From a virus: 23,568 nt of DNA. The notes below the pieces were generated by a model. The model was not told the origin of the DNA. It was given only the letters and a program-made list of their open reading frames with translations, and made no database searches. The stretch's first letter is position 1; the number at the start of each line of letters is the position of its first letter. Where the stretch lies: IMG/VR virus record IMGVR_UViG_3300049595_002351, positions 1-23,568 of that record; one strand, 5' to 3'. Shown one piece after another: positions 653 through 23,276 of this stretch. Both the position numbers and the translations under genes were made by a program.

Positions 653-2793
653 TGGCTAAAGGTTTATTTGAATATTTAAAAGAGATAACTGGTTTAGAAG
701 AAAGCTTGGTTTCATTAAAAACGGTAAAAGCAAGAGAACCTGTTGAAAAGCAGATTAAAAAACTTAAGTTAGAACGGCAATCACGATTTGATAAACTTGT
801 AAGCGATCCTGCGGTATTTAGTGAAGAACTTGAATTAAATATTAGAGCAGCCGCGGCTAAAAGGCTTAAGGGAGAATCAATAGAAGAATACGAAGTATTT
901 TTTGATGATTTGATAAAGAAATTATGGGAGCAATTTAAACTAAGAGGGCCCAGTAGAGCTTTATTACAGCCACCTCTTGTTCCTATATATAATGATAATG
1001 GAACGGTTAGAGTTTTAACTTTACAAGAATTAGAAGAATTAATTAAGGATAATATAGAAAATATTGCAGAATTATCTGCTAATTTGGGATTTAGATTTTC
1101 AAATCCCAATGATCCTAACAGTATACGTTGGGCAAAACTAACTGAAATGCTTGGTCTAGCTGGGGGTAGACCTCTCGAACGAGCTACTGATGCCGAAAAA
1201 GAAACTCAACGTACTTATGCAACTACTATTAATCTTTATAAAAATAAAACTATACAAATAAATGGTACATTTAATCCTAATAATAAAGATGAATATATGG
1301 CTATAGCAGAGCCAGAACTTATGAGCAAATTAAGAACAGCCTTAGGGAATAAGGCTACCATAAAATTTCTTTTAAATTTTTCAGGTGATGGCAGTACAGG
1401 AGAACATGCTGTAGTTATAACGGCGGATATAGTAAGAAAAACCTCTACTGCAGGTGTTAAAATTTTTGGTGTATCTATTAAAGAATGGGATCAAAATATA
1501 ACATATAATAGTGCAGGCCAAGGACCTAATCCGGGTCTTGTTGCATATAATAATAAAGTTTACCATATAAAAGAAGGTATAAATAATACTATAGAAAAAC
1601 CAGATAATTTGGAATACTGGGATGAATTGAAATTAAATTTTAATAAACATAGCAGCTTTGTAATTTTTAAAAATCAGGAAATTTTTAACTTACAGTTAGC
1701 TCATGTTTTTGGTGTACTAAATAATATATTTGATAGTTTACCTGGACAGGAAAGAACTACGATAATACCTTTTTTAGAAAGTACTCTAAATGAATTAAGT
1801 AAGAGCGTTAAAGAAGTAACTGCTACAGCAGAAACTTTAACTATAAATCAAGCAGAAGATAAGGCAGTTAATGAAGCTGTTATAAGTTTAAATAAACTTA
1901 TTACAAGTTCAAAAGAACATTTAAAATTAGCAAAAAACCTATCTACTGTTGTGCCTAGAGATTATGATAAGGACAGTCTTTTAGTACAAGAAGATTTAAG
2001 ACGTACAATGGCACAAAATTTTACCACTAAAATTGAACAGGGAAAACTTGCTTATGGTACTCCTATTGATTTTATGTCACAACTCGTAGTAAGTGATAAA
2101 AGCTTTATACAAGTAGTAGCAAATATGGATGTTACTGTACAATATGGTAGAATTAATGGAGGTTTTCAAAGTACTATAGAAAAAGCTTTTTATACATTTT
2201 TTACAGAGTTTATTCAAAGTAGTATTAAAGCTATTATAGTTAAAGGACAATCGCCTTCTATAACTTCTAGATTAGTAATGGAATCTTTAGCTAAAGTTTA
2301 TAAGGATAAAAATTTTGTAAAAAACTTAAAAAATACAAAGAAAAGGGCAAAGTCACAATTAATAATGCCTTTATATCAAACAAAATTAAGTAAAAAACCT
2401 AAAAAGAATCCAAAAATTAAAAAATTAAGTGCTAAAAATACTCGTAGTAGTGCAAAAACAACCTCTAGAAGAAGTACTACTATCAACTCTAGAAATATTC
2501 CTAGTATAACTAGTAATTTAAATGCTAATATTAAAAATGCTGTAATTGCACAAATGAACGGTGAAGCTCTTAGAAATAGAAGCGGAAAATTTGCATCTAG
2601 TGTTAGAATTTTAGATAATAGACAAAGCGATATAATTAGATATACTTATGAAAAAAATCCTTATGTAATATTTTCTCAAAATTTAGGTAAAAGTCCTTGG
2701 AATTCAGTACCTCAAAGAGATCCTACTACTATAATTAATAAAGCTATTTTAAGCTTAGTTGGTAATAAAAATATAAGGACACAAGTAGTATGA
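652..2793 (+). CDS. Large putative neck / tail-completion protein with gp10-like C-terminus
   Basis: A 713-residue protein lying exactly where tailed phages carry the small neck (HK97 gp10-like tail-completion) protein, between adaptor and tail terminator. Only the C-terminal ~80 residues resemble that family: GEALRNRSGKFASSV at 637-651, then a segment ending in an aromatic YVIFSQNLGKSPW region. The first ~150 residues are charged and helical. Residues ~290-327 contain a short beta motif (LVAYNNKVY, then YW at 322-323) resembling carbohydrate-binding modules of the CBM5/12 type. Residues ~555-620 form a Lys/Arg-rich linker that could touch DNA. Start GTG at 652 with AGGAG at 641-645. Usual gp10-like proteins are about 110-170 residues, so most of this protein is extra. 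It could instead be an unrelated virion protein. Confidence 0.55.
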   Translation: MAKGLFEYLKEITGLEESLVSLKTVKAREPVEKQIKKLKLERQSRFDKLVSDPAVFSEELELNIRAAAAKRLKGESIEEYEVFFDDLIKKLWEQFKLRGPSRALLQPPLVPIYNDNGTVRVLTLQELEELIKDNIENIAELSANLGFRFSNPNDPNSIRWAKLTEMLGLAGGRPLERATDAEKETQRTYATTINLYKNKTIQINGTFNPNNKDEYMAIAEPELMSKLRTALGNKATIKFLLNFSGDGSTGEHAVVITADIVRKTSTAGVKIFGVSIKEWDQNITYNSAGQGPNPGLVAYNNKVYHIKEGINNTIEKPDNLEYWDELKLNFNKHSSFVIFKNQEIFNLQLAHVFGVLNNIFDSLPGQERTTIIPFLESTLNELSKSVKEVTATAETLTINQAEDKAVNEAVISLNKLITSSKEHLKLAKNLSTVVPRDYDKDSLLVQEDLRRTMAQNFTTKIEQGKLAYGTPIDFMSQLVVSDKSFIQVVANMDVTVQYGRINGGFQSTIEKAFYTFFTEFIQSSIKAIIVKGQSPSITSRLVMESLAKVYKDKNFVKNLKNTKKRAKSQLIMPLYQTKLSKKPKKNPKIKKLSAKNTRSSAKTTSRRSTTINSRNIPSITSNLNANIKNAVIAQMNGEALRNRSGKFASSVRILDNRQSDIIRYTYEKNPYVIFSQNLGKSPWNSVPQRDPTTIINKAILSLVGNKNIRTQVV

Positions 2794-3245
2794 TAGAAGC
2801 TAGAATATATTCTACAAGAAGATATGCTATAGTTAATGCATTAGTAGAGCTTTTTAAAACAATTAATGGAACTGGATTATTTACTAGTAACTTAAGTAAT
2901 AATGTTTTTAATAAATTAAAATTCTTTGATGATGTGTCAGATTTTCCTGCTGTATGCGTAACAGCAGGAAATGAGACCAGAGACTATCAGGGAGGCGGGT
3001 ATAGGGATAGATACCTAGATATTAGGATCATGATTTTTATACACGAAGAAAATCCTTTAGAAAAGTGTGAATCAGTTTTAGAGGATTTAGAAACGCTTAT
3101 AGAAAGTAATGGTCGATTAGCTTATACAGATAAGCAAGGAAATACACAGTATACACACGATATAATCGTGCTTTCAATCTCTACAGATGAAGGTACACTA
3201 GACCCGGTTTCTATAGGCGAAATGTCTATTAGGGTCCATTACTAG
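2790..3245 (+). CDS. Tail terminator protein
   Basis: A 151-residue protein matching the pattern of tail terminators (lambda gpU / HK97-type), which cap the growing tail tube and dock the tail on the head. Visible hallmarks: an N-terminal helix (RRYAIVNALVELFKTI), a DFPAVCVTAGNE strand near residues 51-62, a strand-rich core DRYLDIRIMIFIHEE, and a helix LEKCESVLEDLETLIES. It overlaps the preceding gene by four bases (ATGA), suggesting translational coupling, with AAGGA at 2775-2779. Position directly before the tube protein supports the call. The first ATG fits the family's start. Confidence 0.75.
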   Translation: MIEARIYSTRRYAIVNALVELFKTINGTGLFTSNLSNNVFNKLKFFDDVSDFPAVCVTAGNETRDYQGGGYRDRYLDIRIMIFIHEENPLEKCESVLEDLETLIESNGRLAYTDKQGNTQYTHDIIVLSISTDEGTLDPVSIGEMSIRVHY

Positions 3246-3269: not shown

Positions 3270-5000
3270 ATGTCTTTATTCTTAAAAAGAGATACAAAAG
3301 TTTATCTTGAGAAAGTAGGAGCAACTACCGAAATCTGGGAAATCCCAGTAATGGATGGTTTTTCTTTTTCTCAGGCTAACACAACATCCGAGATCACAGT
3401 AAATGAGATGGCTACTGCTGCAGGCGTAACTCGTCGTGGTAGAAAAGTTTTTAATGATGCTCTAGCTCCTGCAGAGTGGAGTTTTTCTACTTATTTACGC
3501 CCATTCGTTTCGCCAACAAATACGGCTACTGTTGTTACAACAGCTTTAGTTGCTGCAAACTCTGGTACAAGGTATAAAATTGTATCCCCTGGTACTACTG
3601 CTTTTGCTGGTTTAGGGCTAAATACTATTGCTACAACTGCTGTAAATGGTACGGGTACAACTGCTACTATTACATTTGCAACACAGGCTGCAGCTCCATT
3701 TGCTGTTGGTTCTAGTATTGTTGTAGAAGGTGTAACAGCAGCTGGCTATAATGGTGTTTATACAGTTACTGCATGTACAACAACAACTGTTAGCTATGCT
3801 AACGTTACTACGGGTGCTGCTACAGTACAAGGTGTTGTTGCTAATGCTTGCTTTACTTATAATGGAGCAACTGCAACAGGCACGGGTACAGTTATTCCAG
3901 CTGGTATTGTAGATAGTGCAGCTAACCATCATGCTATCGAAGAAGTACTTTGGGCTAACTTTGTGGGTTTAGGTACTTATACAAGAAGTACTTATAGTTT
4001 TGCCAATATTACAGCAAATACTACCGCTAGCACTATTGCATTTACAGGTGGTACAAATATTACGCTTGGCACATTTAACCTTTACTTTGTAATGGGAGCT
4101 GCTTTAGATGCTGACTATCGTTATGATAATCCATCATCAACAGAAGTCTTAGTGTATAAAATCACAGACTGTGTAGTTGATCAGGCTACTGTTAATTTTG
4201 ATGTTGATGGTATTGCTATGGTAGAGTGGTCAGGTATGGGCTCACTTTTAGCAAAAGTTACAAATTTTGATGCACATTGCGCTATTACAGAAGGCATCAA
4301 TGCAACATCTAACTTTATTCGTAATAAACTTACCGCCCTTACAATTGCAGCAGGTCCTGCTTGGACAACTACAGAATTTACTGCATTCCCAGGTACAGCT
4401 GTTACTGTAACCGCTGCAGCTGCTGGAACAAATGGATTAATTACAGGTAATCGTTATAGAATTAATACAGCTGGTACAACTAACTGGACTGGTATTGGAG
4501 CAGCAGCAGCCACTGTTGGAACAGTATTTACTTATAATGGTGTTACAACTACGGGTACCGGCGGTATTGTAGATACAGGTGGATACACAATTACACTAAC
4601 AGGCGGGTCTACTAGCTTTGCAAACAATATTAACTTCTTAACACCAGAAGTTTTAGGTATTGTTAACACACCAATTGGCCATGTTGCTGGTAATAAAAAT
4701 ATTAGCGGTAATTTTACAGCTTATATTGATGAAACAGCCTCTATTGATACATCGGCTGAATTTATTGACCGCATGCTTAGAAATACAAGCAAAACATCAA
4801 ATCAGTTTAAGCTAGTATTTACAATTGGTGGTACAGGCAATACACCGCGTGTGGAAATTACATTCCCAACTGCTCACTTAGAGATCCCAGTTGTTCAAAC
4901 CGATGACATTATTGCATTAGATGTTGCATTCCACGGCCTACCGTCTGATATTTCTTCTTCTAACGAAGCAACTATTGTATATACGGGACGAGCCCTGTAA
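3270..5000 (+). CDS. Major tail tube protein with inserted surface modules
   Basis: A 576-residue protein predicted to polymerise into the tail tube. The core fits tube proteins: N-terminal strands (VYLEKVGATTEIWEIPVMDG), NEMATAAGVTRRGRKVF near 45-61, ALAPAEWSFSTYLRPF (65-79), and a C-terminal part (RVEITFPTAHLEIP, DIIALDVAFHGLPSD) typical of these beta-sandwiches. The core is interrupted by Gly/Thr/Ala-rich modules: residues ~98-213 (one module containing another) and ~389-435 (the same outer module, uninterrupted). These would sit on the tube surface. Start ATG has AGGAG at 3256-3260. The gene is followed at once by a strong terminator, which fits the need for many tube subunits and fewer copies of later proteins. 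Typical tube proteins are about 200-350 residues, so the excess is roughly the modules. Confidence 0.8.
   Translation: MSLFLKRDTKVYLEKVGATTEIWEIPVMDGFSFSQANTTSEITVNEMATAAGVTRRGRKVFNDALAPAEWSFSTYLRPFVSPTNTATVVTTALVAANSGTRYKIVSPGTTAFAGLGLNTIATTAVNGTGTTATITFATQAAAPFAVGSSIVVEGVTAAGYNGVYTVTACTTTTVSYANVTTGAATVQGVVANACFTYNGATATGTGTVIPAGIVDSAANHHAIEEVLWANFVGLGTYTRSTYSFANITANTTASTIAFTGGTNITLGTFNLYFVMGAALDADYRYDNPSSTEVLVYKITDCVVDQATVNFDVDGIAMVEWSGMGSLLAKVTNFDAHCAITEGINATSNFIRNKLTALTIAAGPAWTTTEFTAFPGTAVTVTAAAAGTNGLITGNRYRINTAGTTNWTGIGAAAATVGTVFTYNGVTTTGTGGIVDTGGYTITLTGGSTSFANNINFLTPEVLGIVNTPIGHVAGNKNISGNFTAYIDETASIDTSAEFIDRMLRNTSKTSNQFKLVFTIGGTGNTPRVEITFPTAHLEIPVVQTDDIIALDVAFHGLPSDISSSNEATIVYTGRAL
3561..3908 (+). 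repeat. Surface module, copy 1 (interrupted) inside the tube protein
   Basis: Residues 98-213 of the tube protein. The outer module begins SGTRYKIVSPGTTAF and ends ACFTYNGATATGTGTV. It is split by about 70 residues (nt ~3630-3839) of a second module with GTGTTATITFATQ, GYNGVYTVTAC and TTTVSYANVT. The outer module occurs uninterrupted at 4434-4574. Confidence 0.7.
4434..4574 (+). repeat. Surface module, copy 2 (uninterrupted) inside the tube protein
   Basis: Residues 389-435 of the tube protein: GNRYRINTAGTTNW, IGAAAATVG, then VFTYNGVTTTGTGGIV. It shares the pattern G-x-RY-x-I, GTT-x-(F/W), FTYNG, TGTG with copy 1 and with the C-terminus of the gpJ-like protein. The copies match as protein, not obviously as DNA. 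Confidence 0.7.
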
Positions 5001-5095: not shown

Positions 5096-5497
5096 ATGAG
5101 TTTACTAAATTCGTACATGACAGATAAGTTAGAGGCATGGGTTCCATTTGATGGGCTACCTGGTTTTGAAGTGAAGTTGCTTCACTTATCTCGTCCTGAA
5201 ATGCAAAAACTTCAAAAAGCTGCTACTAGAATTACTTTCATAGCAAGACAAAAAACAGAAGAGCTTGATAGCGATATGTTTGTGAAGGCTTTTGCCAAAA
5301 ACTGTATTCTAGATTGGAAAGGTCTAACTTTAGAGTACGCAATGAAACTTCTTCCAATTGTACCCCCAAAAAATACAGATTTAACACAAGAAATTCCCTT
5401 CTCTGAAGAAGATGCAATTAACCTAGTTAAAAATTCTACAACATTTGATCAGTGGATCAATGGGATTGTGTTTGACCTAGACTCTTTTCGTAAGTGA
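5096..5497 (+). CDS. Tail assembly chaperone, short form (lambda gpG-like)
   Basis: A 133-residue protein upstream of the tape measure gene, the fixed place of the G/T-type chaperones that keep the tape measure protein soluble and help recruit tube subunits. Family-like features are an N-terminal strand region (VPFDGLPGFEVKLLHL), helical middle, the DWKGLTLEYAMKLLP motif (residues ~82-96), and a C-terminus IPFSEEDAINLVKNS followed by FDQWINGIVFDLDSF. The phrase ending in DL-x-(S/N)F is where related proteins shift frame. The RBS AAAGGA lies at 5082-5087. A second open frame, +1 relative to this one, begins at 5481 and runs to the tape measure gene, so a longer fusion product is expected. Confidence 0.8.
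   Translation: MSLLNSYMTDKLEAWVPFDGLPGFEVKLLHLSRPEMQKLQKAATRITFIARQKTEELDSDMFVKAFAKNCILDWKGLTLEYAMKLLPIVPPKNTDLTQEIPFSEEDAINLVKNSTTFDQWINGIVFDLDSFRK
5486..5490 (+). promoter_or_regulatory. Putative +1 programmed frameshift site (TTT C G)
   Basis: The short-form frame reads tct ttt cgt aag tga. The downstream frame is closed by TAG at 5478-5480 and open from 5481, so the shift must fall in 5481-5497. Slipping forward one base moves the phenylalanine tRNA from TTT (5486-5488) to TTC (5487-5489), which keeps full pairing, and reading resumes at GTA 5490. A -2 shift at the same codon would pair with CTT, a first-base mismatch. No -1 solution joins these frames. Confidence 0.5.
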
Positions 5498-5882
5498 AGA
5501 AATAGATCAACTAAAAGTAGATTTAGAGAAATTTTTAAAGCAAAGTTCTAGTAAAATAGACAAAGCAAAATATCTTGCTTTAATGGAGCAAGTAGGAAAA
5601 GAACCTGATCCAGATAAAATTCCTATAGGTATAGAAGATCTTGCTTTTGATGCTCAAATAGCAATATCTATTTATAATAGATTAGGGAGTAGAATTTATG
5701 GAGATGTAGGATTTGTAGGTAAAGACTACACTAACTTACCTATACTAATAGAAGTCTATTCTATTAAAAACAAAGAGTTGCTTATAGATTTATTAAATAT
5801 TATAGATACGTTTAATATTCAAAAATCTCAAGAAGCTATCAAAAAAGAATTTGATAAGCTTAAAAAGAAATCTACGCCATGA
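5490..5882 (+). CDS. Downstream part of the tail chaperone fusion (lambda gpT-like)
   Basis: A 130-residue reading frame (VSEEIDQL... to KKKSTP) that would be joined to residue 131 of the short chaperone by a +1 frameshift, giving about 261 residues. An internal ATG at 5583 exists but has no Shine-Dalgarno upstream, while the frame stays open and protein-like back to 5481 (Glu/Lys-rich helix), which favours expression as a fusion. The middle contains GIEDLAFDAQIAISIYNRLGS, and the C-terminus is a Lys-rich helix. The end overlaps the tape measure start by four bases (ATGA). In lambda the equivalent T region contacts the tape measure protein. The assignment here is by position and layout. Confidence 0.65.
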   Translation, partial: VSEEIDQLKVDLEKFLKQSSSKIDKAKYLALMEQVGKEPDPDKIPIGIEDLAFDAQIAISIYNRLGSRIYGDVGFVGKDYTNLPILIEVYSIKNKELLIDLLNIIDTFNIQKSQEAIKKEFDKLKKKSTP

Positions 5883-8800
5883 AGTTAAGCGCGATATTTA
5901 ACCTAAATACTGTTGCAAATACATCGGGAGCGCAGTCAGCAATGTCTGCGCTTACGGATAAAGTAAAGGCTACTGCCAATAGTCTTGGTGTTGCTGCAGC
6001 TAATGCGGCTAAATTAGCGCGTTCTGGTATTGCAAGTCGTTTTGGCGGTGGCGGAGGTGGCGGCGGCGGTGGTGGCGGCGGAGGATTTGATCCTGGAGAA
6101 CATCGCCAATCTCGTGGTGTAATAGGGAGTAGAGCAGCTGCTGGTAGAGATTTTGCAGGTATGGCATCTGCAGGAAATACTAGCGGATTTGTTGCTGCTT
6201 ACGCTACTCTTGCTTCTAACATCTTTGCTTTAACAGCAGCTTTTCAGGCTCTTTCTAATGCAGCTAAAACTGAAGAACTTGTTAATGGTTTAAAACTTGT
6301 AGGTGCTCAAGCAGGTACAACATTAACTGTTGTAGCAAAAAATCTGCAGGAAGTTACTGGCTTTGGTATTACAGCAGCAGATGCTATGAGAACAGTTGCA
6401 CAAGCTAGTGCTAGTGGTATTACTAATGATGAAATTACTCAATTAGGTGCAGTTGCACGTGGTGCATCTGTGGCATTAGGTAGAGATCTTAGTGATTCTA
6501 TGGATCGTCTTATTCGAGGTGTTGCAAAATTAGAACCAGAACTTATTGACGAATTAGGTATTATGACGCGTCTAGACGATGCTATGCGTGCCTATGCAGA
6601 TGCAAATGGAAAAACAGTACAGTCTCTTACTAGAACTGAAAAAAGTCAAGCTTTCTTAAATGCAGTTTTAGAAGAAGGTAAAAAGAAATTTGGAGATGTT
6701 GCAGATCAATTAGATATTAATCCATATAATAAACTTGCTGCATCTGTTAGGGATCTTGGCACTTCAGTATTGACTATAGTAAATAAAGTTTTAGCTCCTG
6801 TAGCCGAAATTTTAGCAGCTAATCCTGCTGCTGCTTTAATTCCTGCTCTATCAATTTTAACTATGGCATTTAGTAAAGTATTACCTAATGCAGTTAATAT
6901 TAATAAAGAATTAGCAAGAGAACTAGATTATAGAACACAATTAAGAAAAGCAACTGCAGACCAACTCGCAGAAGAAATGGCTCTAGCTGCTAGTGGAGAT
7001 GCTGATGCTGCAAAAAGAATAAAAAATCTTGAAAGAGAATTAACCTTTCTTAAAGCAAGAGAAGAGGTAATTCGTGCTACAACCATGGCTGTAGATCGTA
7101 CACGACTAGAAGGTGGAGGTATAGTTACAGCTGTTAGTGCCGTTAAAGAGGCTAAAGATACTTTAGGACAAGATAAAAAACTAGGAATAGGTAATACCTT
7201 TAAAATTATAGGTTCTTCATTGCTCGGTATTGTATCAAGCATGATGTTCTGGGTTAGTATTGCTACAGTACTTGTAGGTATTGCTAAAGGAATTTATGAC
7301 TATTTTGATAGAGCAAATAAACCTATAAAAGATGCAAAAAAAGAACTTGGTGAAATGGCAGATAGAGCCAAAGAAACAAGAAAGCAAGTTCAACTTATGG
7401 CAGAAAGTAATCCTGCTAAAGCTTTTGATGCTTCTGTTAATTCTGTAACGGAACTTTATAATAAACTTGTTGCCATAGAAGGTATTGTAGCTGAAATAGA
7501 AAAAAAGAAAGTTTTAGAAGATTTAGGAAAAATAAAAGTAGAAATTCCTAACCCAAACCTATCTAATAGAGGTGTAGCAGGTTCTCAAGGTATTACACTT
7601 TTTGAGAATTTAAGGGCGGGTGTAGGAGAAGATACTGCAAAATCATTACTTGAAATAGCATCGGCATCTGATGTTTTAGGAGAAGGTTTTAAAAATAGTG
7701 CAATTGAAGCTTTAAAGTTAGTTAAAACAAAAGAAGATGCTGTAGAATGGGGAAAAAAGTTTGGGAAACCTATTGCAGATATTACCGGAAGATTACAAGT
7801 AGTACAGCAGTCTTTTGCAGAGACAAGTACAGAACTACAAAAACTTTTTAATCCTAAAGATTATGATACAACTTTATCTCCCGTAGTAGAAGCTTTTTCA
7901 TCGGCAGGTAAAGAAATACAGCAAATTAAAAAACAAATAGAAGAAACAGAAGGAGCAGATTCTATTAAATTTTACGCTGGATTACAAAAAACTTTAGAAA
8001 GTTTAGGTTCAACAAATCTAGATCAACTACAAAAACTTACAAAAACCGATTTAGGTGTTAAAAATATAAAATATTTAGAAAGTACAGTTGCAAAGTTACG
8101 AAAAGATCTTAAAGATGATCCATTAAATATACGTATCAAAGGTACTCTAGAATTAAATGAGACAAAATTAAAACTAGCTTGGAAGACATTAACAGAAAGA
8201 TTTATAGAACAAAATCCTATAGATATTTTAGAAGGTTTACAAAAAAAGGAAAGAGCTTTAGAAATTGAAAAAGAATCACTAAATATAACAGTTCAAACTG
8301 CTCAAATTAATGCAGATATGAATAAAAAGCGTCTTGATGCAGAGATGACTTTATTAAAGATGCAAAAAGATAGGCGTCTTGCAGGTTTCAGTTTATCTAA
8401 AGAATTCGATATAGGACAAGAAATACTAGATAAAACTAAATCTTTAAATCTTGATAAAACAGCAAATAAAGAAAAAATTAAACAGTTAAATAATGAATTA
8501 GCTATTGCTCAATCAAACTTAAACCTTAAAAAAAGCATGGAAAACCAAGAAAAAGGTAGCCAAGCTATAATAGAAGAACAAAATAAATTTAATACATTAA
8601 GTCTTTCAATTACTGCTAAAAAAGCACAAATTACTCAAGAAGAAACACTAGCACAAGAATATTTAGTAAATTTAGGCAAAGAACTTGTAGATAGACAAAA
8701 TGATGAAAATTATCAAAAACTACAGACTATTCAAAATGCACAAAAACTTTTAGACTTAGAAAAAGAAAGAGTAAGTGTACTTCAGAGAGGAGCACAGTTA

Positions 8801-10021
8801 GGGTTAGACTTAAAAGAAGCTCAGTTAAATCTTCAAAACGCAAGACTAGGTAGAACTATGTCTCAAGAAGACACGTTTAAGTTAGAGCAAGAGCGTTTTG
8901 ATATTGCTATTCAAAATCTTAAAATAGAAGCTGGCTTTTTAATGCAAGAACATCTCTATAAAATGCAACTTTTAGACTTAGAACAAAAAATAAAAGATGC
9001 AGAAATGGTAAATGTAATTGAAGAACTAAGAAAAAATGGTAAAACTGTAGAAGCTAATGCATTAGAAACAGAACGTCAGGGACTAAAATCAATATTTGAA
9101 AATTTACGTGGTACAATAGAACAAACTACAGCACAAGCACTCCTTAATTATTTAACAGAAATTGATATTTTAAAGATACAAAAACAAACTAGTGCAGCTG
9201 AAAGAGAAAATCAAATAAATGCCCCTGCAACAGCTATGCGGCAAAATAGGTTAATGAACGGAGCAGGAGTTCTATCCTCTCTAGGAGGATTCTCTGAAGA
9301 ATTTAAAACAGCTCTTCAAAATGAAAGCACACAGAGTGGTAGAAATATTATAGAAATTCTTTCTGACCCTAAGACAGTACAACAAATAAACGAATCAGCA
9401 ATAGCATTAAAACAGGTAGCTTTAGAAGGTGAACTATTAAATACTGTAGGACAAGGCTTTAATGATTTATTCACTAAAGGCTTTGAAATGATAATTACAG
9501 GTGCCGAAGGTGCTACAGAAGCCTTTAGAAATATGGCTAAAGATATGCTAGTACAAATTGCTGCAGTAATCGCTAAAATGATTGTATTAAAAACAATTGA
9601 ATTAGGATTAAATACAATAGCACCAGGTGCGGGTACCGCATTTATGCAATTCATGAAACCTACACCAGGTGCTGCAGGCGGTATTATGCCAATGGCCAAT
9701 GGCGGTATTATGGACAGGGCCCAAGGATTACAAGGAATTATCACAAAACCAACATATTTAGTTGGGGAAGGTAAGCATAATGAAGCAGTAGTTCCTCTTC
9801 CTAATGGCAGAGAAATTCCTGTACAACTCCAGGGCAACTCTTCAAATTCTAACAATATACAAGTAAACGTAAATATGTCCGGCAATGGAGGACAAGCTAC
9901 AACAGAAACTCAGGGTCAAGATATGGATCAACTGGGCCAAGCCATCGCTGTGGCAGTCCAAAGAGAACTTATCAACCAAAAGCGCCCAGGTGGAATCCTA
10001 AGTAGGTATGGAGCAGCATAA
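5879..10021 (+). CDS. Tail tape measure protein
   Basis: A 1380-residue protein that sets tail length and is expelled into the host at infection. Seen in order: a Gly/Ala-rich N-terminus with an unbroken run of 14 glycines (residues 56-69); a conserved-looking globular part (~100-340) with hydrophobic stretches at ~105-122 and ~303-333; a strongly hydrophobic probable membrane segment at ~443-472 (SSLLGIVSSMMFWVSIATVL); a long Lys/Glu/Leu/Gln-rich helical coiled-coil region (~480-1130); and the C-terminal signature of tape measure proteins, GGIMPMANGGIM then YLVGEGKHNEAVVPLPNG (near 1280-1325). It starts inside the chaperone stop (ATGA) without a strong Shine-Dalgarno, so translation is probably coupled. 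It is the longest gene here, as expected. Confidence 0.93.
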   Translation: MKLSAIFNLNTVANTSGAQSAMSALTDKVKATANSLGVAAANAAKLARSGIASRFGGGGGGGGGGGGGGFDPGEHRQSRGVIGSRAAAGRDFAGMASAGNTSGFVAAYATLASNIFALTAAFQALSNAAKTEELVNGLKLVGAQAGTTLTVVAKNLQEVTGFGITAADAMRTVAQASASGITNDEITQLGAVARGASVALGRDLSDSMDRLIRGVAKLEPELIDELGIMTRLDDAMRAYADANGKTVQSLTRTEKSQAFLNAVLEEGKKKFGDVADQLDINPYNKLAASVRDLGTSVLTIVNKVLAPVAEILAANPAAALIPALSILTMAFSKVLPNAVNINKELARELDYRTQLRKATADQLAEEMALAASGDADAAKRIKNLERELTFLKAREEVIRATTMAVDRTRLEGGGIVTAVSAVKEAKDTLGQDKKLGIGNTFKIIGSSLLGIVSSMMFWVSIATVLVGIAKGIYDYFDRANKPIKDAKKELGEMADRAKETRKQVQLMAESNPAKAFDASVNSVTELYNKLVAIEGIVAEIEKKKVLEDLGKIKVEIPNPNLSNRGVAGSQGITLFENLRAGVGEDTAKSLLEIASASDVLGEGFKNSAIEALKLVKTKEDAVEWGKKFGKPIADITGRLQVVQQSFAETSTELQKLFNPKDYDTTLSPVVEAFSSAGKEIQQIKKQIEETEGADSIKFYAGLQKTLESLGSTNLDQLQKLTKTDLGVKNIKYLESTVAKLRKDLKDDPLNIRIKGTLELNETKLKLAWKTLTERFIEQNPIDILEGLQKKERALEIEKESLNITVQTAQINADMNKKRLDAEMTLLKMQKDRRLAGFSLSKEFDIGQEILDKTKSLNLDKTANKEKIKQLNNELAIAQSNLNLKKSMENQEKGSQAIIEEQNKFNTLSLSITAKKAQITQEETLAQEYLVNLGKELVDRQNDENYQKLQTIQNAQKLLDLEKERVSVLQRGAQLGLDLKEAQLNLQNARLGRTMSQEDTFKLEQERFDIAIQNLKIEAGFLMQEHLYKMQLLDLEQKIKDAEMVNVIEELRKNGKTVEANALETERQGLKSIFENLRGTIEQTTAQALLNYLTEIDILKIQKQTSAAERENQINAPATAMRQNRLMNGAGVLSSLGGFSEEFKTALQNESTQSGRNIIEILSDPKTVQQINESAIALKQVALEGELLNTVGQGFNDLFTKGFEMIITGAEGATEAFRNMAKDMLVQIAAVIAKMIVLKTIELGLNTIAPGAGTAFMQFMKPTPGAAGGIMPMANGGIMDRAQGLQGIITKPTYLVGEGKHNEAVVPLPNGREIPVQLQGNSSNSNNIQVNVNMSGNGGQATTETQGQDMDQLGQAIAVAVQRELINQKRPGGILSRYGAA

Positions 10022-20533: not shown

Positions 20534-21487
20534 TTAAAATATATCATTCCAATTGCCGGTAGTGGCAGATTTTGCGTATTCTGTAGGTCTATTCTCGAAG
20601 AAATTCGTATGTTCTACGGCATTGATCATAGCATCAACCCATGGAAGAGGATTCTTTTCTACATTAAATATATTCTTTAATCCTAGTTGATTAAGTCTAC
20701 GACCTGCAATATACCTAATATATCCTTTTACTTCTTCAGGAGCTAGTCCTTTTACAGCATTGCCCTCAAAGCATGTATCAATGAAAGCATCTTCTAGCTC
20801 TACTACTTTTTCTGCAATACTATATAGTGCACTTTTTAGTTCGTCAGTCCAAAGTTCGGGATGCTCTTCAATGTAGGTTCGGAATAGTTTAGTCATTCCT
20901 TGTACATGCAAGTTTTCATCCCTTACGCTCCATGAGACAATTTGTCCCATATTCTTCATAAGGTTATGCCTAGGAAAGTTAAGTAGGATTGCAAATGAGG
21001 AAAATAGCTGCACTCCTTCTGTAAAGCCTGAATAAACTGCAAGTGACTTTGCGATTTCCTTAGGTGACTCCATACTAAATTGTTCAAGATATTCATGCTT
21101 TTCTCGCATTGCCTTGAAGTTACTAAACATTTTATATTCTTCATCAGACAATCCTAGTGTTTCAATAAGCAATGAATAAGCTTGAATATGCACTGCTTCC
21201 ATACCTACAAAAGCTGCCATCATCATACGAATTTCTGGAGCTTTAAAAGTAGGAAGATAATGTTGAGAATAACCTCCAGCTACGTCTACATCGCTTTGAG
21301 TAAAAAATCTAAAAATTTGAGTAATTAGTTTCTTTTCTTCTGGCGTAAGTTTAGTGTTATAATCTTTAATGTCATCAGCAATGGGTACCTCATCAGGATT
21401 CCATTCCATCTGTCTCTGGGCTTTGAACATATCAAAAGCCCAAGGATATTTAAAAGGTTTAAAGTAGTCTCTTTTTTCAGTTAGCAT
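20534..21487 (-). CDS. nrdB: Class I ribonucleotide reductase small (beta) subunit
   Basis: A 317-residue radical-generating subunit that works with NrdA to reduce ribonucleotides to deoxyribonucleotides. All key residues can be placed by the E. coli pattern: Asp66 (FFTQSD), Glu97 and His100 (GMEAVH), radical Tyr104 (IQAY), Glu157 (GFTEGV), and Glu191 with His194 (RDENLH), giving a complete dimetal site plus tyrosine. Trp29 (EWNPDEV) fits the tryptophan of the radical path. The C-terminus ends NWNDIF, probably the tail that docks on NrdA. The start lies two bases past the nrdA stop, with AGGG in that stop region as ribosome site. Length is near that of the shorter phage NrdB proteins. Confidence 0.95.
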   Translation of the reverse strand: MLTEKRDYFKPFKYPWAFDMFKAQRQMEWNPDEVPIADDIKDYNTKLTPEEKKLITQIFRFFTQSDVDVAGGYSQHYLPTFKAPEIRMMMAAFVGMEAVHIQAYSLLIETLGLSDEEYKMFSNFKAMREKHEYLEQFSMESPKEIAKSLAVYSGFTEGVQLFSSFAILLNFPRHNLMKNMGQIVSWSVRDENLHVQGMTKLFRTYIEEHPELWTDELKSALYSIAEKVVELEDAFIDTCFEGNAVKGLAPEEVKGYIRYIAGRRLNQLGLKNIFNVEKNPLPWVDAMINAVEHTNFFENRPTEYAKSATTGNWNDIF

Positions 21488-21488
21488 A

Positions 21489-23276
21489 TCACCCTTCGCA
21501 AGCTAAGCACTCTTCCCCAGTAATAGGGGCTTCAAAATTGAATTTATGTTTTTCAGTTTTTTTACTTAAATCATCTGATCTTTTAATAGCTTCACTACGA
21601 AGATAGTAAAGAGTCTTAACTCCTTTTTTCCACGCAAGCAAGTGAATGTAATGTAGTTCTTGCTTACTTACGTCTGGAGGAAAAAATAGGTTTAAAGATT
21701 GTGCTTGGCAGATATACTCAGTTCTATCTGCTGCTAACTCTACGATCCATCTTTGATCAATTTCGATCGCAGTTTTAAATACAGCTCGCTCATAGTCAGA
21801 AAGAAATTCAAGATGAGCAACACTGCCCCCACTAGCAATGATCGAAGCCCATGTATGATCGTCGTTTTTATCATAGTCTGCCAATACTTTCTCTAGGTAT
21901 TTATTTTTCATCATTGAAGTTCCGCTCATTGTTTTCTGATTGAAAGCATTAGCGCGGAAAGGTTCAATGCCTGGACTTGTATTACCACAAATAATACTAC
22001 TAGAGGCATTAGGGGCAATAGCTAATAGATGTGCGTTTCGAATGTTTTCTACACCTTTAGCATCTGGACAAGGTCCTCTTTCGTCAGCTAGACGTATAGT
22101 TTCTTCTTTTGCTTGTTTCTTAATATGACTAAAGATTTTCTTGTTGATACCTTTAGCCATAGGAGACTCTAGAGGAATCATTTTGCTTTGTAGATAAGCA
22201 TGGAATCCCATAAGTCCAAGACCCAAAGATCTTTCTCTAGTTGCTGAGTAGATAGCTTTGTAAAGTTGTTCAGGTGCATTATCAATAAAGACCTGAATAA
22301 CATTATCTAGCATACGAATAAGATCAGGAATAAAATTAGGGTCATCTTTCCACTCATCAAATTTCTCAGCATTTACAGAAGATAGGCAGCAAACTGCTGT
22401 TCTATTTGCATCTGTAGCTAGAGTAATCTCTGAGCAGAGATTTGATTGCCTAACTTTAAGTCCCAGCCGCTGCTGGAAGTCTGGAAGAGCATCATTAACT
22501 GTATCTCCAAACATAATATAAGGTTCGCCAGTTTCTGCACGATTCTGGATAATTTTAATCCACAAAGCTCTAGCAGATACAGTTTTAACAACCTCTTTCG
22601 TGTGAGGATCTATCAGAGGCCATGAGTCATTGAAATCTTCTCCTTTAGCTTTTGCTTCAGTAGCTCTTTCAATAAGTCTCATGAATTTATCAGAGATAAT
22701 TACTCCATGATGCAAGTTTAAGCACATGCGATTTACATCGCCAGTAGGCTTACGGATATCTAAGAACTCACCAATTTCTGGGTGAGAAATATCTAGATAT
22801 GCAGCATTAGAACCTCTACGAGTAACTCCCTGAGAGAATGCAAGCATTAATCCATCAGTAACTTTCATAAACGGAATAACGCCCGTACTCTCCGAACCAG
22901 AAGAAGTTTTGATCCCTGTAGATCTAACATCCCCCCAGTAAGTACCGATTCCCCCTCCTACAGATGATAGGAAAGCATCTTCAGTAAAGACCTCTGTAAT
23001 TCCGTGCCTGCTGTCTTCAACGTAGTTTAAAAAGCAGGAAATAGGGAGTCCACGAGAACTTCCTCCATTAGAAAGCAAAGGAGTAGCAAACATAAACCAA
23101 TGTTTACTAGCATAGTCATATAGTCTTTGTGCATGAGCATCGTCATCAGCAAAAGTTAATGCAGCTCTAGCAAAAGCTTCTTGAGGCGAAGTCTCGTGAG
23201 GAAGAAGGTATCTATCTTTTAGTGTTTTAATACTAAATTCTTCTAGTAAATTATCTCGGCTATAATCAATAATCAT
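21489..23276 (-). CDS. nrdA: Class I ribonucleotide reductase large (alpha) subunit without ATP-cone
   Basis: A 595-residue catalytic subunit of class I ribonucleotide reductase. Catalytic positions visible: Cys81 (GLPISCFLN), the active-site run SNLCSE with Asn279, thiyl Cys281 and Glu283, a second redox Cys at 296 or 297 (TAVCCLSSVN), the radical-transfer pair Tyr557-Tyr558 (KTLYYLRS), and a C-terminal swinging pair Cys590/Cys593 (ECLACEG). The phosphate/substrate loop NASSSIICGNTSPGIEPF (423-440) is intact. The protein begins almost at the catalytic core: there is no room for the ~90-residue N-terminal ATP-cone of E. coli NrdA (761 residues), so dATP feedback at that site is probably absent. 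It overlaps the exonuclease stop by four bases. AGGA lies about nine bases upstream of the start. Confidence 0.95.
   Translation of the reverse strand: MIIDYSRDNLLEEFSIKTLKDRYLLPHETSPQEAFARAALTFADDDAHAQRLYDYASKHWFMFATPLLSNGGSSRGLPISCFLNYVEDSRHGITEVFTEDAFLSSVGGGIGTYWGDVRSTGIKTSSGSESTGVIPFMKVTDGLMLAFSQGVTRRGSNAAYLDISHPEIGEFLDIRKPTGDVNRMCLNLHHGVIISDKFMRLIERATEAKAKGEDFNDSWPLIDPHTKEVVKTVSARALWIKIIQNRAETGEPYIMFGDTVNDALPDFQQRLGLKVRQSNLCSEITLATDANRTAVCCLSSVNAEKFDEWKDDPNFIPDLIRMLDNVIQVFIDNAPEQLYKAIYSATRERSLGLGLMGFHAYLQSKMIPLESPMAKGINKKIFSHIKKQAKEETIRLADERGPCPDAKGVENIRNAHLLAIAPNASSSIICGNTSPGIEPFRANAFNQKTMSGTSMMKNKYLEKVLADYDKNDDHTWASIIASGGSVAHLEFLSDYERAVFKTAIEIDQRWIVELAADRTEYICQAQSLNLFFPPDVSKQELHYIHLLAWKKGVKTLYYLRSEAIKRSDDLSKKTEKHKFNFEAPITGEECLACEG

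Follow-up and report, generated by a model that had tools for sequence, protein, structure and literature searches.

A conserved UUU_C site as the likely +1 frameshift signal joining the tail assembly chaperone frames of T5-like phages

In phage lambda, the tail assembly chaperones G and GT are produced through a ribosomal frameshift (Xu, Hendrix and Duda 2004, described in PMC5009743). Two overlapping ORFs between the tail tube and tape measure genes give a short and a long form, and the same arrangement is found in the siphophage tail module of a 23.6-kb IMG/VR virus fragment (hereafter the window, meaning the whole stretch of DNA analysed). Lambda slips by −1, however, whereas the two frames of the window fit only a shift of +1 (or −2). 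The question raised by this locus is how ribosomes would pass from the first frame into the second. Based on a comparison of related loci, we propose, with a probability of roughly 0.9, that ORF1 and ORF2 of this T5-like siphophage encode a chaperone pair of the lambda G/GT type, joined by a +1 slip at UUU_C. The features of the window that bear on this reading are as follows.

2790-3245: tail terminator
3270-5000: major tail protein
5096..5497, + strand: ORF1, short tail assembly chaperone of 133 aa with a lambda gpG-like role (PHROG 313 'Tail assembly chaperone', E 4e-17)
5481..5497, + strand: overlap of 17 bases in which both frames are open
5486..5491, + strand: proposed +1 slip site UUU_CGU, with UUU 5486-5488 in the P site and CGU 5489-5491 in the A site (from UUU_C conservation and the frame switch of constraint)
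5490..5882, + strand: ORF2, C-terminal domain of the long chaperone, 130 aa post-shift, with a lambda T-like role (PHROG 3914, E 6e-18)
5583..5585, + strand: the only ATG in ORF2, without a Shine-Dalgarno (SD) sequence
5879..10021, + strand: tape measure protein (PHROG 3779, E 1.5e-54)

ORF1 starts at ATG 5096, downstream of a strong SD, AGAAAGGAAA (−4.9 kcal/mol anti-SD pairing), and stops at TGA 5495-5497. Both ORFs are related to known tail assembly chaperones through their PHROG matches, and they lie between the major tail protein and tape measure genes, the position of a gpG/gpGT-type pair. Isolates matching both chaperone halves are T5-like phages, at up to about 40% identity, with 29-38% identity between ORF1 and its counterparts in members of the Demerecviridae. 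Since the window is a fragment that groups with uncultured contigs, we describe it only as T5-like and claim no membership of the Demerecviridae. Elsewhere in the window, a 713-aa ORF among the head-tail connector genes (652-2793) has no PHROG match, the N-terminal region of the tape measure protein contains a run of 14 glycines encoded by GGN repeats (6047-6084), and no tRNA genes were found. Two − strand ORFs adjoining the tail genes (20534-23276) resemble the small and large subunits of ribonucleotide reductase.

The initial annotation had placed ORF2 (open 5481-5882) at an offset of +1, equivalently −2, from ORF1, with a 17-base overlap containing TCT TTT CGT AAG TGA; every coordinate was recomputed and both statements are exact. 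The frame-0 codons that end ORF1 are TCT (5483), TTT (5486), CGT (5489), AAG (5492) and TGA (5495). The third frame, the target of a −1 slip, is open for only 3 codons across the ORF1 stop, so that a −1 slip could not reach ORF2. The frames are thus incompatible with −1, in agreement with the earlier claim that no −1 heptamer could join them, and the heptamer usual for a gpG/gpGT-type pair is absent from the window. ATG 5583 is, as had been noted, the sole ATG of ORF2 and lacks a ribosome site (anti-SD pairing of +0.9 kcal/mol, versus the strong pairing at the ORF1 start).

Uncultured relatives were added to phage records from IMG/VR by three profile scans; a scan with a single window protein found none, whereas the profile scans did, and a profile built from six ORF2 sequences was too variable for scanning. 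In all, there were 252 loci with both ORFs, corresponding to 186 distinct junctions, with five loci lacking one ORF left out. The shift is +1 in 157 of the 186 junctions and −1 in the other 29. Each of the 157 +1 junctions contains an in-frame TTTC, exactly one inside the usable overlap. The site reads TTTCGT in 131, TTTCGC in 10, TTTCGA in 9, TTTCAA in 4, TTTCAC in 2 and TTTCCA in 1, so that UUU_CGN is present in 150/157, including the window (TTT CGT). In the remaining seven, Arg is replaced by Gln, His or Pro (CAA, CAC, CCA) with the C retained, and this C is the base required for re-pairing on UUC. The same pattern was seen in 15 phage records chosen to span the Demerecviridae (including T5, phiR2-01, My1, Sugarland, Stubb, pVp-1, JSF12, KIT04, Brizo and VspSw_1), in which, as in the window, ORF2 is always in +1 and the overlap holds an in-frame TTT CGT or TTT CGA.

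The initial annotation had suggested aligning homologous loci, and the alignment showed both TTTC and the +1 relation to be conserved in all 157 junctions. It had also pointed to a one-base indel restoring −1 in close relatives as evidence against a +1 shift. None was found, the nearest relatives (61, 60 and 59% identity) all being +1 with TTTCGN, and −1 in a more distant clade goes with a canonical heptamer of its own. Separately, the record of Aeromonas phage AhP_Mru1 (L013, PV190393) annotates the tail-gene region as many very short ORFs, and ORF2 was recovered there only in part; the record may contain sequencing indels.

Substitution patterns locate the point at which the reading frame changes. 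Upstream of the site the most variable position is the third base of frame-0 codons; downstream it is the frame-0 first base, which is the third base in +1. The four TTTC positions between them show 0.00 mismatch in 4890 pairs. In the 60 bases before the site, dN/dS is 0.08 in frame 0 and 2.1 in +1, and in phages with a long overlap the values for the part of the overlap after the site are 1.5 in frame 0 and 0.22 in +1. In +1, dN/dS is 0.093 for the codons separating the ORF1 stop from the first ORF2 ATG, versus 0.074 after the ATG. The downstream ORF is thus under selection in the +1 frame from the site onward, as expected of a UUU_CGN site, and we conclude that +1 reading starts at the site, and neither at the stop nor at the ATG. 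The first ATG of ORF2 lies 4-115 codons past the site among relatives (31 in the window), and these ATGs lack an SD (median −0.2 kcal/mol, compared with −2.1 at random places and −6.8 at ORF1 starts). Comparison therefore shows ORF2 to be without a start signal of its own and, as in gpG/gpGT-type pairs, read as an extension of ORF1, with the switch of frame placed at UUU_C by the substitution data. Because the tested chaperone features are present and the −1 heptamer is not, the locus appears to be a chaperone pair with a different recoding signal.

Structure prediction, with the two chaperone halves folded separately, gave an ORF2 domain with a pLDDT of 90 whose first helix lies entirely before the only ATG in the window. 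The ORF2 model had no significant PDB match. The only PDB match of the ORF1 model is YqbN, at a Z of 5.2 that could stem from a widespread structural arrangement, although a weak Pfam match below the cut-off is likewise to YqbN-like (XkdN) proteins. The ORF1 model further matches predicted tape measure chaperones, with E down to 8e-14.

Codon choice at the site is strongly skewed. Phe is never encoded by TTC there (0/157), although TTC makes up 27% of Phe codons elsewhere in these genes and occurs in 27/157 at a matched conserved Phe position. Similarly, the Arg codon at the site is never AGR, which accounts for 51% of Arg codons elsewhere in these genes. If a single phage is kept from each of the 13 clusters at 50% identity, uniform TTT would arise by chance with a probability of about 10^-3.4 and uniform CGN with one of about 10^-4.4; for the 51 clusters at 70%, the corresponding values are 10^-10 and 10^-18. 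These figures serve as guides because they treat clusters as independent, which they are not fully. Codon use in the window (per 1000) is lower for CGU (7.4) than for AGA (23.0), and is 34.2 for GUA, the codon gained by the slip. CGU is common in E. coli (20.2 per 1000; table of PMC3498833), and its rarity therefore cannot fully account for CGN; nor is slow decoding in the A site an obvious explanation in that host.

These data favour the slip from TTT to TTC by the Phe-tRNA that the initial annotation had put forward, with DSF-VSEEIDQL at the predicted junction. The mechanism that we infer extends to the direction of the slip (+1 and not −2), the behaviour of the tRNA, how often the slip occurs and what the product does. 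In it, most ribosomes would terminate at TGA 5495 and release the short chaperone. A minority would slip by +1 with Phe-tRNA on UUU 5486-5488 and the Arg codon CGU waiting in the A site. The Phe-tRNA would move from a wobble pair on UUU to full pairing on UUC 5487-5489, GUA 5490-5492 would enter the A site, and reading would go on as far as the stop at 5880, so that the fusion (...LDSF-VSEEIDQL...) would have 261 aa. If the roles are as in lambda, the short form would coat the tape measure protein and the minor long form would recruit the tail tube protein.

The distance from the A-site codon to the ORF1 stop varies from 0 to 28 codons across the +1 junctions, so the stop codon is not part of the signal. 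No 3' stimulatory structure was found, since 70-nt segments there fold with an energy no lower than in other parts of these loci (mean z +0.37 over 51 representatives), and an SD-like element upstream of the slip site was sought in the related loci and not found. The efficiency may therefore be low. Transcriptional slippage was considered and rejected, since slippage by the polymerase needs a longer run than the three conserved T. The tape measure ATG overlaps the ORF2 stop as ATGA (5879-5882) without an SD (−0.2 kcal/mol), and an overlap of this type also occurs in near relatives of the window (L098, L178, L181, L018 and L101). Synthesis of the tape measure protein may be coupled to the frameshifted ribosomes, in which case its level would follow that of the long chaperone.

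ORF2 could instead be translated independently, as a gene in its own right, from its ATG (5583 in the window) or from another start codon. Most T5-like records do annotate two genes, some with a proposed ribosome site, and GTG is the first +1 codon in 23/157 junctions. Purifying selection in +1 nevertheless acts between the ORF1 stop and the first ATG, and already in the overlap before the stop, where dN/dS is 0.22. The first ATGs lack an SD and in some relatives sit 63-115 codons in, the first helix of the window model precedes the only ATG available, and the invariant UUU_C would be left unexplained. Together, the selection, ATG position, SD and helix data argue strongly against separate initiation as the main route, and we regard this explanation as improbable.

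A −2 slip, as in phage Mu, would satisfy the frame relation equally well and add one residue to the fusion. In its favour is the record of Salmonella phage Shivani (KP143763, 93207-94038), in which a joined chaperone CDS of 832 bases encodes 277 aa, as a −2 join would; the product of a +1 join would be 276 aa long. The Mu gpGT frameshift serves the same chaperone function with the same net frame change, but re-pairing of a tRNA two bases back, on which it depends, is impossible at any codon of the window overlap, since CTT, TTC or GTA would need to pair with the Phe, Arg or Lys tRNA. The initial annotation was therefore correct that a −2 slip would mispair. The bases before UUU also vary among relatives (AAC, AAT, ACT, TCT, GGG, CGA, TAC and others), and a −2 slip has no need of the invariant C after UUU. 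We consider it unlikely that the fusion is made in this way.

Short overlaps such as this one are typical of coupled genes, and ribosomes terminating at the ORF1 stop could in principle re-initiate in ORF2 at a nearby non-standard codon. The stop, however, moves over the 0 to 28 codons given above, yet constraint in +1 begins at the site and not at the stop, making re-initiation very improbable. An assembly error of one base, conceivable for a metagenomic contig fragment, has a negligible chance of explaining a +1 relation shared by 157 distinct junctions, including those of the complete isolate genomes T5, My1 and pVp-1.

In 28 of the 29 −1 junctions the short chaperone ends with the canonical A_AAA_AAC followed by UAA; the clade with A_AAA_AAC_UAA comprises loci L021-L064 and L097. 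In the 29th, L171 (1338-1365), the position equivalent to the +1 site reads A_AAU_UUU_ACG, and judging from these motifs a one-base change near UUU could separate the −1 and +1 modes. In an unrooted tree of 78 representatives, without two long outgroups, one branch separates −1 from +1 with support of 98/92, although the tree program warns that long branches meet where L171 joins the −1 clade. The direction of the shift changed about once in the chaperone family. An arrangement that looks like −1 is also seen in two more distant loci, L093 and L096, a hint that −1 preceded +1; when they are included, there are two direction changes, on very long branches.

The proposed site closely resembles motifs from eukaryotic RNA viruses. 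In influenza A PA-X, experiments have established UUU_CGU, within UCC_UUU_CGU, as a site of +1 slippage; the transframe product was shown there by protein sequencing and the role of the A-site CGN codon was called uncertain (PMC3498833), and a UUU_CGN +1 motif has been proposed for plant amalgaviruses (PMC5052127). The chaperone site shares with these the hexamer, the P-site change from UUU to UUC, an ORF in +1 and the lack of an evident stimulator, and the junction of Pectobacterium phage My1 is the full UCC_UUU_CGU of influenza. It differs in belonging to a bacterial DNA phage, a 70S ribosome and a structural-assembly gene, and in the seven junctions that keep only UUU_C. There is perhaps an even chance that the ribosome and tRNAs themselves make UUU_CGN a +1 site, that DNA phages of bacteria and RNA viruses of eukaryotes came to use it independently, and that in this phage lineage it and a −1 heptamer changed places at the chaperone junction while the fusion was kept.

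Among bacterial and phage systems, prfB (RF2) likewise involves a +1 slip of the P-site tRNA, but the window has neither its upstream SD-like element nor its A-site stop codon. Phage +1 shifts are described for Tsh of Listeria phages and of SPP1 (PMC3498833), and the HSTV-2 tail chaperone is probably +1 (PMC5009743). Tsh and HSTV-2 resemble the window in shifting by +1 in tail genes; Tsh is the major tail protein and not a chaperone. According to the authors of PRFect, no general forward motif has been identified, and their method demands that the A-site codon gained by the slip be more frequent than the one it replaces (PMC10885494). T4-like phages are reported, according to a title cited in PMC12846349, to make such chaperones by a non-frameshift route.

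Earlier statements on T5-like phages conflict. The joined CDS of Shivani means that the fusion is not wholly unannotated, though its genome announcement makes no mention of a frameshift, and the Sugarland paper (2018) reported no predicted frameshift signal in T5 or Sugarland. In the open-licence literature, judged by title, we found no report of a UUU CGU frameshift in phages, and no ribosome-profiling paper on T5 was found there; the amalgavirus paper (PMC5052127) does not mention phage or bacteria. What appears to be new is the UUU_C signal across the family, together with the evidence for it, and the +1 site in T5-like phages appears undescribed in open-licence papers.

If correct, a +1 slip at UUU_C would account for the long tail chaperone of the textbook phage T5, and the gene pair would need correction in many of the 887 public records containing the first chaperone. 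The junctions would provide a large natural set for +1 frameshifting in bacteria and, in E. coli, a model in which to study what the A-site CGN codon does, and would document a phage family in which the direction of the frameshift changed while the fusion was kept.
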